Virus record (IMG/VR): IMGVR_UViG_3300042340_000188
Span: 1 to 36,263 of that record
Direction: 5' to 3' (one strand)
DNA: 36,263 nucleotides
From: a virus
Shown here: piece after piece, positions 15,635 through 23,748 of the stretch
Numbering within the stretch: position 1 is the stretch's first letter
Layout of the letters: the number at the start of each line of letters is the position of its first letter
The notes under the pieces: generated by a model
What the model was told of the DNA's origin: nothing
Databases searched by the model: none
What the model saw: the letters and a program-made list of their open reading frames with translations, nothing else
Made by a program: the position numbers and the translations under genes

Positions 15635-15795
15635 CGTCCATCCTCCCCTTCCACGACCGCCATCCCGGCGGCCTCGATTGCGTTGACAACGCGGACTAGG
15701 AACGCCAGCCGATGCTGATCGACCGGGCAGTCCTCGTCGGGCGCGTACTGGTAGAGAGCGCGGAACGCTCGGCGGGCGATTTCGTCGGGGGTCAT
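15631..15795 (-). CDS. Small protein, unknown
   Basis: The 54-aa protein starts at ATG 15795, overlapping the previous stop as ATGA. It is acidic and helical (MTPDEIARRAFRALYQYAPD, then HRLAFLVRVVNAIEAAG). The open frame extends upstream into the repeat array, but that extension is only low-complexity repeat. No family is recognised. Confidence 0.55.
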   Translation of the reverse strand: MTPDEIARRAFRALYQYAPDEDCPVDQHRLAFLVRVVNAIEAAGMAVVEGEDGR

Positions 15796-15953
15796 CGCAA
15801 CCCCGCCAGCGCAATCACCACCGCGCCCGTCACGACGCCGAGCAAGGCGAAGGCGAACCAGTAGACCGCCGTTCCCTGCCACCGCCGGTCCTCGTCCATC
15901 CAAGCCAGCGCATCCCTGCTGGATTGGACGCGGCGCTCCTGTTCCTCGGTCAT
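15792..15953 (-). CDS. Small tail-anchored membrane protein
   Basis: The start at ATG 15953 gives 53 aa and lies eight bases after AGGAGG; an ATG two codons upstream is too close to that site. A charged N-terminal helix (TEEQERRVQSSRDALAWMDE) is followed by a C-terminal membrane span (TAVYWFAFALLGVVTGAVVI). It is the first gene after the pentamer array, and its ribosome site abuts the last repeat units. Confidence 0.6.
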   Translation of the reverse strand: MTEEQERRVQSSRDALAWMDEDRRWQGTAVYWFAFALLGVVTGAVVIALAGLR

Positions 15954-15968
15954 TTCCATTTCCTCCTT

Positions 15969-16290
15969 TGCCTGCCTCACCGGGCCTCACCGGGCCGTGC
16001 CGCGCCATGCCCTGCCTGCCTCGCCTCGCCATGCCATGCCCCGCCCCGCCCCGCCTCGCCTGCCTTGCGCCGCCGCGCCGTGCCAGACCGTGCCTTGCCT
16101 GCTTTGCTTCGCCCTGCCGCGCCACGCCGCGCCATGCCGCGCCATGCCTGCCATGCCTTGCCCTGCAAAGCCGCTCCTTGCCTCGCCCCGCCCTGCCTCG
16201 CCTGCCTTGCCGTGCCCTGACGTGCCGAGCCGTGCCTCGCCGCGCCCTGCCTGCCATGCCCCACCACACCAAGCCCAACCACGCCTTGCC
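15969..16290 (-). repeat. Degenerate GGCNN pentanucleotide array
   Basis: On the minus strand, the stop codon TAA of the gene at 16291 is followed at once by back-to-back units of the form GGCNN (GGCAT, GGCGC, GGCAA, GGCGA, GGCAG and others), with occasional 4-base GGCA and diverged units. More than fifty GGC cores occur in about 320 bases. The array ends exactly at the AAGGAGG ribosome site of the next gene. All reading frames are open because the units lack stops, so the apparent ORFs (Ala/Arg/Gly/Gln-rich) are not credible genes. This is the only stretch above 300 bases without a gene. Confidence 0.9.
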
Positions 16291-16746
16291 TTACCCGGCG
16301 CGCTTCTTGCGCTCGTTGCGCGCAAGAAACTTGTTGATGCTCGCGCGCAGTTCGTCGCTGGCGTCAAGCGCGTCGGCGTAGCGCAACAGCCGCGCTTGGA
16401 CGCTTCGCAGGTCGGTCAGCAGATGCGCGATGACCGCCCGCGTCGCTTCCGGCGACGACTGCACCACCGAGACCGCGACGTACTCGCGCGATCCCCGATC
16501 CACGTTGAGATAGGCGCGCACAGGCGGCTCGTTCGGCTTGTGCGGCTCCAGATGAACGACCACGCGGCGGATCAGCCCGCGTGCTTGGAGCAGCCGATAC
16601 TTCTCGGCAGCCTCGGCGTCGTTCCAATCGAACATCGAGTGCAGCGACGAATTGGGGCTGCGCGCCCGATCCACGACGGCTTCCGGCGTGAGCTTGTCGC
16701 CAAGTTCTCGCGCCATTTCCTCCAGTTCGCGCTCCCAGCGGGACAT
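16291..16746 (-). CDS. Conserved phage protein, 151 aa, partner of the 209-aa protein
   Basis: The start ATG 16746 overlaps the stop of the 209-aa gene. The protein has a helical N-terminus (WERELEEMARELGDKLTPEA) with a VVDRARSPNSSLHSMFDWND segment, then EAAEKYRLLQARGLIRRVVV, a beta strand region (VRAYLNVDRG), and a helical basic C-terminus (LRASINKFLARNERKKRAG). From memory the pairing with a 209-aa-type neighbour recurs in other phages, but no function is known to me. It lies immediately upstream of the pentamer array. Confidence 0.65.
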   Translation of the reverse strand: MSRWERELEEMARELGDKLTPEAVVDRARSPNSSLHSMFDWNDAEAAEKYRLLQARGLIRRVVVHLEPHKPNEPPVRAYLNVDRGSREYVAVSVVQSSPEATRAVIAHLLTDLRSVQARLLRYADALDASDELRASINKFLARNERKKRAG

Positions 16747-17375
16747 CACGACACCACCTCGAACGTGCCCCAACCGAGCCCGTAGCTCTCGCGGCTGAAC
16801 GGACGCCCCTCTCCGACGCCGATCTGCATTCCGGCGCGGGCCAGCAGGTTGGACACATCTCCGACCCTGAACTGGTCGCCGTCCCAGCGCACTCGAAGCG
16901 TGGCGCTCCAGCGCCGGAACATCGGCCTGGAGCGCAAATCGGTCACGCCCGTCTGGTTTCGCGTCGCAGCGACGTGCTGCTCGTAGTCGCCGATGATCCG
17001 CACCAGCGGCTGTCCGCTGACGAGGTCGAGTCCGTCCGCCTCGACGAAGACGGACATCTTCGCCATCGTCATCTTGAAGCCGACCAGGCGGCAGGCATCG
17101 ATCATCGCCGCGCGCCATGCCGACGCCGGAAAGCCGATGGTGCCATCCTCCAGGCGGTGCAGCGCCGCCTCGCAGTCAGCCGCGAAGTCGCGCGCCTCGC
17201 GCTCTTTCTTCGATTTCGCCGTCGATCCGGCCTCGTGCTTCTCGCGCATCTTCTGGCGCGCCTTCTCGGAGAAGGCGGCCATGACCAGCGGCGCTGTGCC
17301 GACGATCTCGAACTGCGCGCGCTCGAACTTCGGCGCGGCGATGGTGACGATCTCTTGCTTCGTGAACGCGTTCAT
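16746..17375 (-). CDS. Conserved phage protein, possibly RAMP/Cas7-like fold
   Basis: The 209-aa protein starts at ATG 17375 after GGGAGG; a TTG six codons earlier lies in that ribosome site and is rejected. Visible features: FEIVGTAPLVMAAFSEKAR (22-40), a Lys-rich segment (50-62), GFPASAWRAAMIDACR (81-96), and a glycine-rich C-terminus with GVGEGRPFSRESYGLGWGTF (186-205). The small-residue-led helix in the middle and the terminal Gly-rich loop resemble RAMP-superfamily proteins, but sequence alone does not establish homology. It sits between RecT and the 151-aa protein, so a nucleic-acid role is likely. I recall this family as widespread in phages without assigned function. Confidence 0.6.
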   Translation of the reverse strand: MNAFTKQEIVTIAAPKFERAQFEIVGTAPLVMAAFSEKARQKMREKHEAGSTAKSKKEREARDFAADCEAALHRLEDGTIGFPASAWRAAMIDACRLVGFKMTMAKMSVFVEADGLDLVSGQPLVRIIGDYEQHVAATRNQTGVTDLRSRPMFRRWSATLRVRWDGDQFRVGDVSNLLARAGMQIGVGEGRPFSRESYGLGWGTFEVVS

Positions 17376-17389
17376 CTGAACCTCCCTTT

Positions 17390-18334
17390 TCAACCAGCCA
17401 GATCCGCCACCCGGCGGCGGCTCTCCTCCATGATGCGCTCATGCGCCTCGGGCGACGCGGCACTGATGTCGTCGAGGTTGCCGCGCTGGGCCAGCATGAT
17501 CTTGTCGATGTCCTTGACGCTCGCCGCCTTGCGGATCGCCGCGACGATGGCGCGGGCGCGCTCGGCCAGCTCGGGCGTGAGGGTTGCGCCGGTCGGGGAG
17601 GCTGGTGAGGCCTCTGCGGAGGGGGAAGGCTCCGCATCCGACGCGGCCGGCGCGATGTTGTCGGCCTCTTGTTCCACGTTGTCGAGCAGGGCGTCCATCG
17701 CGGCGCTGACGGCTGCGAGGGGGGTGGAGGGCGGGGGCGTGATGTCGCGCATGGTCACGCTCGACGGCGCGGCGAGGTCGTCGTCGGCGTGGATGCCCAG
17801 CACGGCCTCGGGCATGTAGCGCCGCGCCCACTCGCGCGCGCCACGATAGGCCAGCATCTGGTCGGTGTTCTTCTTCCACTGCTCGTTGCTGGTCTTCCAG
17901 CCGCCGACCGTGCCGACGACCGCGCGCGGCGCGACGTCACCGATCAGCTTGCCCAGTACCGTGACCTGGCGCTGGTCACCAGCGCCGCTGTACTGGTAGT
18001 CGAGGCTGCCCTGCAGCTTGCCCGAGGCGTTCACGACGGCGGCGATCAGCTTGCCCTCGTAGCCAAGCTTGCCGCTCAGCACATACGTGTGCTGAGCGAC
18101 TGCGAACGGGTCCATGCGCCAGCGGAAGGCCTGCGCCGCGACGAGGAAACAATCGCCCAGCTTGCCCTCGCCGCGCAGATGCGCGGGCGCGAGCGAGGCG
18201 CTCGACATCAGTTTCGCGACGCGCTGGAGCTGGCCGAAGATGTCGCTGTCGAGGTAGACGGCGACGGGGTCCGAGAAGTCCACGGCGACGGCGCGCGGCG
18301 CGGTGGCGGTCGGAAGGTTCGTGACGTTGGTCAT
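17390..18334 (-). CDS. recT: RecT-family single-strand annealing recombinase
   Basis: The 314-aa protein starts at ATG 18334, overlapping the exonuclease stop (ATGA). The core RecT signature is at about 59-102: GDCFLVAAQAFRWRMDPFAV, then QHTYVLSGKLGYEGK and LIAAVVN. A second conserved segment, WARRYMPEAVLGIH, comes later. After about residue 205 there is a Pro/Ser/Ala-rich linker and a helical C-terminus (ELAERARAIVAAIRKAASVK). RecT proteins bind single-stranded DNA and anneal complementary strands, acting with an exonuclease in phage recombination. It is encoded in the order exonuclease then RecT. Confidence 0.9.
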   Translation of the reverse strand: MTNVTNLPTATAPRAVAVDFSDPVAVYLDSDIFGQLQRVAKLMSSASLAPAHLRGEGKLGDCFLVAAQAFRWRMDPFAVAQHTYVLSGKLGYEGKLIAAVVNASGKLQGSLDYQYSGAGDQRQVTVLGKLIGDVAPRAVVGTVGGWKTSNEQWKKNTDQMLAYRGAREWARRYMPEAVLGIHADDDLAAPSSVTMRDITPPPSTPLAAVSAAMDALLDNVEQEADNIAPAASDAEPSPSAEASPASPTGATLTPELAERARAIVAAIRKAASVKDIDKIMLAQRGNLDDISAASPEAHERIMEESRRRVADLAG

Positions 18335-19200
18335 TTCGTGTACTCCCTCTGGATGGATGCGTTGATCTCGTTGGCCGCCCACTGCGGCAGGCCGATTTCA
18401 ACAACACCATCGGTGTAGCCCGGCCAGTTGTTCTGCGCAACGCTTTTCGCGAAGCGACGCAGGATCTGGCGCAGCTGCTGGTCGGCGGCGCTCGCGGCGT
18501 CGGCGGACAAGGCGGCGACGTAGCCGAGGTGGGGCTCGTCGTTGCCGACCACCATGAACGCATGGGTCGGGCGCTGGATGCCGAGCGTCGAGGCGACCAG
18601 CCGAACCATCGCGTCCCCGAGGTCGTACCTGAGATTGGCGGCGGTCTTGCGCCAGGAGTTCGGCGCGGGCGATGCAGTGGTCTTGAGGTTCACCGCCAGC
18701 CCGGCGCGCGAGATGTAGAGGTCGGGGCGGCACAGCAGCGTCAGGCCGGTCTCCTCGTCCTTCGCGACCATCGTCACCTCGGCGCGACCGCCAGCCTCGA
18801 GGAGGCGGCGAGCGTCGGCGTTGCGCATGAGGCCCTCGCGCATCCCGACGATCCGCATGTGGTCGGTGAAGGAGACGATCTGTCGATCGCCCTGCGCCTC
18901 GCGCCACGCCTTGCCCTCGCGCGTCGCGAAGGACAGGCCATCGGGCTTGACCGAGAACCGCTGGTGAAAGGCCTCGGCGCCCTCCAAGATATACGCGTGC
19001 GCGGCGGTGCCAAGCTCCATCGACGCGCTCGGATCGCGGTGAAAGCGGGCCGGGTTGCCGCGCCAGAAGGCGTGGGCGTGGGCTGGGCATTCGGTCTCGT
19101 ACGATACGAGGTCCGATCCGCTGACCGCCGGGGCCGCGAAAGCCTCGGCGCTCAGGTACGCCTCGAACGAGACGTCGTTGTGGATGCCCTCAGCGATCAT
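18331..19200 (-). CDS. RecE-like (exonuclease VIII C-terminal) PD-(D/E)XK nuclease
   Basis: The 289-aa protein partners RecT by resecting double-stranded DNA ends. Family features: VSGSDLVSYETECPAHAHAF (26-45), GTAAHAYILEG (64-74) with the conserved His, and CRPDLYISRAGLAVNLKTT (157-175). In that last motif D160 is the first acid and K173 the lysine, but the residue two before the lysine is N171 (codon 18688-18690, AAC), where family members usually have Asp or Glu. The length fits the nuclease domain alone. The activity could be reduced or altered. The stop overlaps the RecT start. Confidence 0.85.
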   Translation of the reverse strand: MIAEGIHNDVSFEAYLSAEAFAAPAVSGSDLVSYETECPAHAHAFWRGNPARFHRDPSASMELGTAAHAYILEGAEAFHQRFSVKPDGLSFATREGKAWREAQGDRQIVSFTDHMRIVGMREGLMRNADARRLLEAGGRAEVTMVAKDEETGLTLLCRPDLYISRAGLAVNLKTTASPAPNSWRKTAANLRYDLGDAMVRLVASTLGIQRPTHAFMVVGNDEPHLGYVAALSADAASAADQQLRQILRRFAKSVAQNNWPGYTDGVVEIGLPQWAANEINASIQREYTK

Positions 19201-20524: not shown

Positions 20525-21258
20525 AGCGCGACACCGCAATCGAGCGCGTGTCGAACGCGTTGCGGGCCGAGGGCGGGCGCGCTTCGACGCAGCGGCTGTG
20601 CGAAGTTCTGCCCGGCATGGGCCGGGGGTTGGTGTTGATGGCCCTCGCGCACTTGAAGCGCCGCGAGCTGGTAGACAGCGACTACGCTCCGCGCAAGCAG
20701 CCCGAGTGCGGCTGGACCTACTGGTTCACGCCCGCGAAGAAGATGCATCGCGGCAGCCGTTTCAAGGCGGCGGTGTCGAACGGCTACACCCGGCTCGTCG
20801 TCGAGTACCTCGACGCGGCTGGCGGCGAGGCGCCGATCGACGCATGGCTCGCGTGGAGCGCGCAGATCACGCATCGGGTGCGGCTGCACTCGGGCGTCCA
20901 CAGCCTGCGGCGGCGCGGGCTGATCGAGGTCGGCAAGGCGCGCGTTCGGCTGACCGACAAGGGCAGGCAAGCGCTCGCGCTTGGTCGCACCGTCGCTCCC
21001 ATCGCGCCGACCATCGCGGACTTCGAGGACATCGCCGAGCCCGAGACGCGCTCGACCGATCCCGAGGCCTGCGTCGCGCGCGCCGAGAAGCTCTGGCCGA
21101 AGCTGATGCGCGGCCGCAGGTACGAGGACATCCCGGCGCACCTCATTCGCCCGCAGCGCCTGCTGCGATGGACGCCGCCGCTGCAAGAGCGGTCGATGAC
21201 CGGGTCGAGCGGGGCGATGCTGGCCGAGAGCCGCGATGCGACGGGAGGGACGCCATGA
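20521..21258 (+). CDS. Protein with two winged-helix-like domains, unknown
   Basis: The 245-aa protein starts at ATG 20521, overlapping the regulator stop. Residues about 5-65 (AIERVSNALRAEGGRASTQR, ALAHLKRRELVDSDY) and about 87-152 (RLVVEYLDAAGGEAPIDAWL, GVHSLRRRGLIEVGKARVRL) each show the helix-helix-recognition helix-wing pattern, with the second ending LTDKGRQAL. The C-terminal third is helical and ends in a disordered tail. It is probably a DNA-binding early regulator. No named family is recognised. Confidence 0.6.
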   Translation: MKRDTAIERVSNALRAEGGRASTQRLCEVLPGMGRGLVLMALAHLKRRELVDSDYAPRKQPECGWTYWFTPAKKMHRGSRFKAAVSNGYTRLVVEYLDAAGGEAPIDAWLAWSAQITHRVRLHSGVHSLRRRGLIEVGKARVRLTDKGRQALALGRTVAPIAPTIADFEDIAEPETRSTDPEACVARAEKLWPKLMRGRRYEDIPAHLIRPQRLLRWTPPLQERSMTGSSGAMLAESRDATGGTP

Positions 21259-22091
21259 GGAACAATCCGTTCTTTTTGAAGGGTCCGGCAGTTGTCTCGT
21301 TCAGCGGCGGCAGGACGTCCGCCTACATGCTCTGTCGTATCGTCCAAGCGCATGGCGGCGAGCTGCCGAGCGACGTCCTGGTCATCTTCGCCAACACCGG
21401 CAAGGAGATGCCGCAGACGCTCGATTTCGTGCGCGATTGCGGCGAGCGATGGGGCGTGCCGATCATGTGGGTCGAGTACGCCGACCACGACGAGGTCGCG
21501 CAGCGGTGGCGCATCACCAGCTACGCCGACGCCAGCCGCGCGGGCGAGCCGTTCGCGGCGCTGATCCGGCGCAAGAAGATGCTGCCCAACGTCGTCGCCA
21601 GGTTCTGCACGGCCGACCTCAAGATCCGCGCCATGCACCGCATGTTGAAGGCGACGCTGGGTTGGGACGAGTGGACCGAGGCCGTTGGCCTGCGCGCGGA
21701 CGAGATGCACAGGGTCTCGCGCATCAAGGCGTCCAACGAAGGCAATCGGTACGTTGTCTGTCCGTTAGCAGATGCTGGCATCACGAAGCGCGACGTAGCG
21801 GCGTTCTGGGAGCGGCAGAACTTCGATTTGCAGCTACCCAACATCAACGGCCGCACACCGCACGGGAACTGCGACCTGTGCTTCCTGAAACCCATTGCCA
21901 CCGTGCGCGCTATCATGCGTGACATTCCGGGCTCGGCGGACTGGTGGGTGCAACAGGAGAAAGTGTACGGTGATCAATGGCGCAAGGATTGGCCGTCATA
22001 CGCCCAGATAGCCGCCAATGTGGAGGCAAGCGCAGACCTGTTCGCAGAAGAGGGCAGGGCCACTGAATGCTTCTGCAATGGTGATACATGA
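21255..22091 (+). CDS. PAPS-reductase-like PP-loop family protein
   Basis: The 278-aa protein starts at ATG 21255 with GGGAGGGA at 21243-21250. The PP-loop SGGRTSAYM is at residues 17-25, followed by VLVIFANTGKEMPQTLDFV, the second family motif. Cysteines in ARFCTADLK, then CDLCFLKP and finally CFC could hold a metal or Fe-S cluster. Family members activate substrates by adenylation or carry out sulfur chemistry; phage versions are common but their substrate is unknown. It is expressed with replication and recombination genes (RusA follows, overlapping by ATGA), so a role in nucleotide or DNA modification is possible. Confidence 0.8.
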   Translation: MRNNPFFLKGPAVVSFSGGRTSAYMLCRIVQAHGGELPSDVLVIFANTGKEMPQTLDFVRDCGERWGVPIMWVEYADHDEVAQRWRITSYADASRAGEPFAALIRRKKMLPNVVARFCTADLKIRAMHRMLKATLGWDEWTEAVGLRADEMHRVSRIKASNEGNRYVVCPLADAGITKRDVAAFWERQNFDLQLPNINGRTPHGNCDLCFLKPIATVRAIMRDIPGSADWWVQQEKVYGDQWRKDWPSYAQIAANVEASADLFAEEGRATECFCNGDT

Positions 22092-22912: not shown

Positions 22913-23748
22913 TGATGGCAGGACGACCAGATAGCTGGATGCCGCTGTACGTCGCGGACTACCTCGCGGACACGGCGCATCTGACCGCCGCCCAGAGCGG
23001 CGCCTACCTCCACCTCATCATGGCCTACTGGCGAGCCGGCGGGCCGCTGCGCCTGAGCGACGACGCGCTTGCTCGAGCGGCCAGGATGACGCCTGACGAG
23101 TGGATCGAGAACCGTGACGCGGTGCTTGCGTTCTTCGCGGTCTCGTCCGGTCAGATCCGTCATGGCCGGATCGACCACGAACTGGCCGAGGCCGCCCGCC
23201 TCTACGACGCCCGCAAGAGGCGCACCGAGGCCGCGACCGCCGCGAGGGCCGCGCGCAACGTAACGGACAACGTAACGATGAACGTAACGTCCGACGTAAC
23301 GGACAACGTAACGTGCATACAACCACAACCACAACCACAACCACCCTTTCCTTCGGAAAGAACAAGTTCTGAGAAACCGGTTCTGGGGGGTGCAGGGGGG
23401 AAGCGCGCAGAGCGCGCCGACCGAGGAGCCCGCCTGCCCGACGATTGGTCGCCTTCGGAGGATGACCGCGCCTTCGCCTGCAGCCTCGGCGTCGCGGTCG
23501 ATCGCGAGGCGGCGTCGTTCCGCGACTACTGGCACAGCAAGCCCGGCGCGGACGGGCGGAAGGTCAACTGGAGCGCGACCTGGAGGAACTGGGTGCGCCG
23601 CAGCAGCGAACGGAGGACGACGAATGGCACAGGATCTCGCACGGGCAACGGCTTTCTCGCAGTCGCTCGCGAACTGGCTGCAGAGGGCCGAGACCGAGAC
23701 GCCGGGTTCGCAGCTTTCGATCCCCCCGAGCGTCCGGACCGAGGCTGA
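22912..23748 (+). CDS. DUF1376-type replication initiation-like protein
   Basis: The 278-aa protein has a clear DUF1376 N-terminus (WMPLYVADYLADTAHLTAAQ, then SGAYLHLIMAYWRAGGPL and a DDALARAARMTPDEW segment). A repeat-encoded middle (about 116-145: five NVTx-type tetrapeptides, then Gln-Pro dipeptides) follows, then a C-terminal DWSPSEDDRAFA and FRDYWHSKPGADGRKVNWSA block seen in phage replication proteins. It probably recognises the origin formed by the iterons inside its own gene, as lambda O does. The last 125 bases overlap the next gene in another frame. Confidence 0.75.
   Translation: MMAGRPDSWMPLYVADYLADTAHLTAAQSGAYLHLIMAYWRAGGPLRLSDDALARAARMTPDEWIENRDAVLAFFAVSSGQIRHGRIDHELAEAARLYDARKRRTEAATAARAARNVTDNVTMNVTSDVTDNVTCIQPQPQPQPPFPSERTSSEKPVLGGAGGKRAERADRGARLPDDWSPSEDDRAFACSLGVAVDREAASFRDYWHSKPGADGRKVNWSATWRNWVRRSSERRTTNGTGSRTGNGFLAVARELAAEGRDRDAGFAAFDPPERPDRG
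23257..23316 (+). repeat. Five 12-bp iterons, candidate replication origin
   Basis: Five contiguous 12-bp direct repeats share the core ACGTAACG: units begin at 23257, 23269, 23281, 23293 and 23305, with only the last three bases and one first base varying. They lie inside the initiator-like gene. The number, spacing and position match lambdoid origins inside gene O. Confidence 0.75.
23319..23342 (+). repeat. Four ACAACC hexamer repeats beside the iterons
   Basis: Four exact ACAACC units follow the iterons after two bases, giving a strand-biased, purine-poor tract followed by CACCCTTTCC. The block encodes alternating Gln-Pro. It is less GC-rich than its surroundings and could be the unwinding or single-strand-exposed part of the origin. 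Confidence 0.65.

Follow-up and report, generated by a model that had tools for sequence, protein, structure and literature searches.

A GGYNN pentamer array beside a Cas7-like protein gene in an IMG/VR phage record, read as a guide-RNA array of a VIPR system

The virus record IMGVR_UViG_3300042340_000188 (IMG/VR; positions 1 to 36,263, analyzed as a whole and referred to here as the window) contains an array of short degenerate repeats within its recombination operon. We conclude that this array, on the minus strand at 15973-16295, is very probably the guide-RNA (vrRNA) array of a phage-borne VIPR system. VIPR was described in 2026, in a preprint, as a candidate ancestor of CRISPR; its components are Vipr, which is a RAMP protein, an accessory protein, and RNAs in which GGY and NN alternate and which read DNA with one base skipped, and array RNA was reported to copurify with the Vipr of phage SUSP1 (PMC13142463). 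The array and its blocks, the homology and predicted fold of the adjacent Vipr protein, the linkage of the two, and the turnover of blocks were obtained in this analysis, as was support for the skip code in relatives with the same array type. The locus is a further VIPR member, in a large clade with tail-less arrays interrupted by GGCA slips.

A sequence-only reading of the window had described an edge-to-edge array of GGCNN units, and this array proved to be real. It is precisely bounded: its start (16295) overlaps the TAA stop codon (16291-16293) of a gene for a 151-amino-acid (aa) protein, and its 3′ end abuts GGCAAAGGAGGAAATG, in which the next gene, a small open reading frame (15792-15959, minus strand), has its ribosome-binding site and start. 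Parsed in register, the array has 66 consecutive units (59 pentamers and 7 four-base slips), with 53 GGC, 7 GGT, and 6 one-base deviants, so that the core is GGY rather than GGC. Relative to 1,000 dinucleotide shuffles, GGC was enriched (55 versus 32.4 ± 3.2) and GGCNNGGC far more so (37 versus 3.1 ± 1.7; maximum, 11); outside the array, the number of GGCNNGGC copies never exceeded 4 in any 320-base stretch of the 36 kb. Autocorrelation exceeded that of dinucleotide shuffles at lag 5 (z = 11.2) and lag 10 (z = 10.2), placing the period-5 signal far above the shuffled controls. The repeats present were short-period ones and a degenerate period of 49 bases at 72% match; no CRISPR-like long, near-identical repeats with unique spacers were found.

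Tetramers of GGCA (AGCA in one case) divide the array in a nonrandom manner into seven in-register blocks of 7 to 10 pentamers. All lie on the minus strand; in array order they are 44, 49, 54, 49, 39, 44, and 44 bases long. These lengths follow 5n + 4, and most of them are not divisible by three, a point against coding. The earlier proposal that selection acts on nucleic acid and not on protein was right. Block 1 (16252-16295; NN series AA AA GT TG TT GT GG AT) overlaps the stop codon of the 151-aa gene and is common to many relatives. Block 2 (16203-16251; AG GC GA AC TC AC AG AC AA) and block 3 (16149-16202; GA AG GG GA AA GC TT AG AA AT) each occur in 5 relatives as well. Block 4 (16100-16148; AT GC AT GC GT GC AG GA AA) is the one closed by AGCA. 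It is followed by block 5 (16061-16099; AA AC CT AC GC GG AA), by block 6 (16017-16060; GA GG GG GG AT AT GA GA), which is unique to the window among the relatives compared, and by block 7 (15973-16016; AG AT GC AC CC GA CC GA). The seven GGCA-separated blocks are most likely separate guides, and GGCA would mark the guide border in the window phage.

The NN positions vary far more than the core. All 16 NN dinucleotides were present over 2,689 units, and comparison of related blocks gave differences at 23 of 588 GGY positions (3.9%) and 64 of 392 NN positions (16.3%), even though the pairs were selected by NN similarity, a bias against finding more variation in NN than in GGY. Block number, order, and identity varied among relatives whose Vipr proteins are 99 to 100% identical and whose vipr DNA is 97 to 99% identical, and the borders coincided with GGCA. 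Perhaps whole GGCA-bounded guides come and go, change their order, and have their NN letters edited among phages with identical Vipr, in the manner of a CRISPR-style library; we hold this only tentatively, and it would imply a guide-writing or exchange mechanism.

The protein that ties the array to VIPR is encoded at 16746-17393 (minus strand) and has 215 aa, or 209 aa if translated from an internal ATG. BLASTP aligned it with the 195-aa SUSP1 Vipr (E = 8e-9; 23% identity), and both proteins were assigned to phrog_4652. A profile of 30 relatives had a single significant PDB match, 36pp, "SUSP1 Vipr protein" (4.9e-5). The AlphaFold model of the 215-aa protein had a pLDDT of 85, with low confidence for residues 41 to 70. 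The model matched Cas7-type subunits of CRISPR effectors, with no other kind of protein among the best 50 rows; all Foldseek matches in the PDB with an E value of ≤0.001 were CRISPR type III/VII effector chains, and the best Cas7/Csm3-type structural matches reached a Foldseek E value of 5.6e-5 and a VIA Z score of up to 10.1. Vipr proteins are characterized by a glycine-rich loop and by a thumb domain that disrupts pairing; the loop is conserved here near the C terminus, as QxGxGEGRPxSxxSxGxGWG. We concluded from this homology and from the modeled structure that the 215-aa protein is Vipr, by its predicted fold a Cas7/Csm3-like RAMP.

The array and vipr occur together across a wide range of genomes. 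For loci retrieved by protein alone, every one of the 22 viral relatives whose sequence continues past the gene had the array; two further relatives end at vipr. We also examined 23 loci in cellular genomes (Proteobacteria, Planctomycetes, Verrucomicrobia, Acidobacteria, Bacteroidetes, Synergistetes, and others). A GGCNN array was found in 21; one, a Gemmatales locus (L177:5600-6400), had a GTCNN array with GTCA slips approximately 1.2 kb after its Vipr, and one, a low-GC Bacteroidetes locus, had only a weak period-5 stretch. The array was also found in six named phages: Cyanophage Cy-LDV1, Mycobacterium phages Saal and Gorge, Gordonia phages ODay and UmaThurman, and SUSP1. Conversely, when strong arrays were sought by DNA pattern alone, 75 of the 93 identified lay with a Vipr, compared with 0 of 80 control phage loci, and the array was on the vipr coding strand in all 55 loci found by DNA pattern. 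The sequence-only reading had listed a multivalent substrate of the adjacent 209-aa protein among its options; the tie to that protein holds, and the array persists in every relative that keeps both the gene and the sequence downstream of it.

The 151-aa gene (16291-16746, minus strand; phrog_15946) overlaps the vipr stop codon. Its product had no similarity to SUSP1 vap1, and the two belong to different PHROGs; its structural model was weak (pTM, 0.44), and a fold search with it returned no match. Vipr and the 151-aa protein were each found in 33 of 50,697 phage records, with an identical tally of organisms, and all listed records for the 151-aa protein were also among those for Vipr. Since the two share their organisms in this way, we consider the 151-aa protein a candidate Vipr accessory protein (vap) and putative partner of Vipr. 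In phage Gorge (L153:3845-5062), vipr and the 151-aa-type gene are annotated as a single coding sequence of 405 aa, an apparent frameshift fusion relative to Saal. An inverted repeat, TTCTTGCGC-n7-GCGCAAGAA (16304-16328), lies at the end of the window's candidate vap gene, shortly before the array in minus-strand order.

We searched for targets by running the guides of seven named-phage arrays against the genomes of 12 mycobacterial and Gordonia phages, allowing skips of 0 to 4 nucleotides between NN pairs. Exact matches were obtained only at skip 1. A guide of phage Quico (AA TT AT TT TT AT GC CC TC; L190:240-470) matched 18 of 18 bases on the minus strand of Che8 (NC_004680.2:10432-10460), and the guide was also found in Florinda. 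Of 400 unit shuffles of this guide, none had 2 or fewer mismatches of 20; the observed value was 1. The matched Che8 site lies inside gp14, after the tail assembly chaperones; homologues of gp14 are annotated as tape measure proteins. All the skipped bases of the site are codon third (wobble) positions, and the homologous sites in Wachhund, Squirty, and Minnie each have one change, always at a skipped base.

A second case involves vipr itself. Decoded with a 1-nucleotide skip, the first guide of Bacterium HR16 (L156:6675-6730) gives D-[IM]-V-N-L-[FL]-S-R-V-G. Against 27 vipr genes its mean best match was 15.1 of 20, compared with at most 12.0 for 40 shuffles; the best site was in codon phase in all 27 genes and was visibly the homologous motif in nearly all. 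It matched 18 of 20 bases in the vipr gene of another locus (L158) and 14 of 20 in that of its own genome. The HR16 guide appears to be aimed at a foreign vipr motif, VIPR against VIPR. A guide from a further locus (L138) matched the Walker A codon run of a helicase at 18 of 20 bases in wobble phase; 8 of 250 shuffles equaled this, and the match is only suggestive of a Walker A target. Judged by the Quico and HR16 matches, the 1-nucleotide-skip code is supported in relatives with the window's type of array.

Several results weigh against a VIPR assignment for the window or against the generality of the code. Exact IMG/VR scans with window blocks 3 and 4 identified no target; the few matches were at chance level, in sequence of 37 to 54% GC. 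Nor did related phages (2.7 Mb, both strands) yield a target for the window blocks. When all guides were compared with all loci collected, skip-1 matches were not clearly in excess overall, and wobble-phased matches were only slightly so (720 versus 672); several loci that had been retrieved through a skip-1 pattern match were excluded when matches were judged. The window array also lacks a 3′ tail of the type II style, and the 151-aa protein is dissimilar to SUSP1 vap1. Searches with guides from relatives were similarly unproductive: two Saal blocks in IMG/VR and one Saal block in 16 phage records (≤3 mismatches) gave no useful target, and of two Bradyrhizobium guides searched against 243 congeneric genomes, one gave 1 match (reversed control, 0) and the other 3 (reversed control, 2).

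We weighed these points together with other explanations of the array. Its tight linkage to both the 215-aa and the 151-aa proteins would also be expected of a DNA-level multivalent binding site for either one, operator- or partition-like and involving no guide RNA. An operator, however, needs no hypervariable NN that spell sites in rival phages, and both the constant position of the array on the vipr coding strand in the pattern-found loci and the predicted Cas7 fold of the protein speak against a DNA site; the Cas7 fold is known from RNA-coating filaments. We therefore regard a DNA site as improbable. The neighboring recT and exonuclease genes could suggest an annealing or recombination substrate for their products, and the sequence-only reading had proposed an annealing substrate for RecT. 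Arrays lie beside vipr in Saal, ODay, UmaThurman, and SUSP1 with no annotated recT adjacent, which leaves this explanation very unlikely.

A structured RNA, a G-quadruplex element, or an operon attenuator had likewise been put forward, and the array is indeed very G rich, is flanked by two genes of a single operon, and contains GGGGCGGGGCGGGG. Its folding energy was no better than that of shuffles (z = −1.0), a search of the array against Rfam returned no family, and its length and content change freely among close relatives; a G-quadruplex as the purpose of the design is not supported, and we give a structured RNA or attenuator equally little chance. The short period, with gain and loss of blocks, might even suggest a functionless degenerate microsatellite produced by replication slippage, but slippage would duplicate NN along with GGC, whereas here GGC is constant and NN is variable, and the arrays span many phyla beside one protein family. 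A microsatellite is the least credible of these explanations. The sequence-only reading had not recognized the variable NN letters as the message, and a guide-RNA bank is the best reading of the array.

As a guide-RNA bank, the array would act as follows. The array would be part of the operon transcript, and the Cas7-like Vipr would coat it, probably with one subunit per GGYNN pentamer, keeping each GGY unpaired and displaying each NN. Double-stranded DNA would be read as NNxNNx by successive NN pairs, and binding to a site in a rival phage would repress that site. For the window phage, we infer transcription, Vipr binding, and repression alike.

Among known VIPR systems, one close counterpart is the SUSP1/P. 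fulva clade (type II). The SUSP1 locus (KT454805.2, 28031-29061), recognized by two long gaps, shows GGYNN runs with tails. Both it and the window locus are phage borne, with a Vipr RAMP, adjoining GGY/NN tandem repeats, and an accessory gene; the 1-nucleotide-skip code is also common ground, seen on our side only in relatives. In contrast to type II, the window Vipr is only 23% identical and its accessory protein has no vap1 similarity, the window blocks abut with a 4-base GGCA slip and no structured 3′ tail between guides, and GGC predominates over GGT. Since the conserved 3′ tail and the vap1 homologue are type II features absent here, we did not assign the window locus to type II. PMC13142463 also names types with "staggered arrays with overlapping vrRNAs," whose style is possibly the same, that of a long tail-less run. 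Class 1 CRISPR-Cas effectors of the Cas7/Csm3 kind share the predicted fold and the glycine-rich loop but have approximately 10% sequence identity, and the pentamer array stands in place of CRISPR repeats and spacers. Also close are Mycobacterium phages Saal, Donkeykong, and Quico and relatives, Gordonia phages ODay and UmaThurman, and Cy-LDV1, which have a homologous Vipr and 151-aa protein (hypothetical in their records) and GGCA-slipped GGCNN arrays. In the mycobacteriophages, unlike the window, the array is upstream of vipr and is followed by a hairpin, TTGGCTGG-GCAA-CCAGCCA (L187:200-560 and L190:240-490), that is conserved among them and may be a 3′ tail.

Outside the system, the same operon encodes, upstream of vipr, a RecT-like annealing protein (17390-18382, minus strand) and an exonuclease VIII-like protein (18331-19200, minus strand). 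The phage has portal, major head protein, and terminase genes. It also carries a phosphoadenosine phosphosulfate reductase-like gene (20688-22091) and a primosomal-protein-like gene with an in-frame 12-base tandem repeat, CAACGTAACGGA, encoding DNVT-type repeats (23256-23313).

The tail-less clade occurs with phages and genomes that range from cyanobacteria and mycobacteria to Planctomycetes, and it includes laboratory mycobacteriophages with a readable predicted target. The possible separate-guide function of tail-less arrays is thus directly testable in a standard host, and so is guide acquisition, a question raised by the turnover of blocks among phages whose Vipr is the same.
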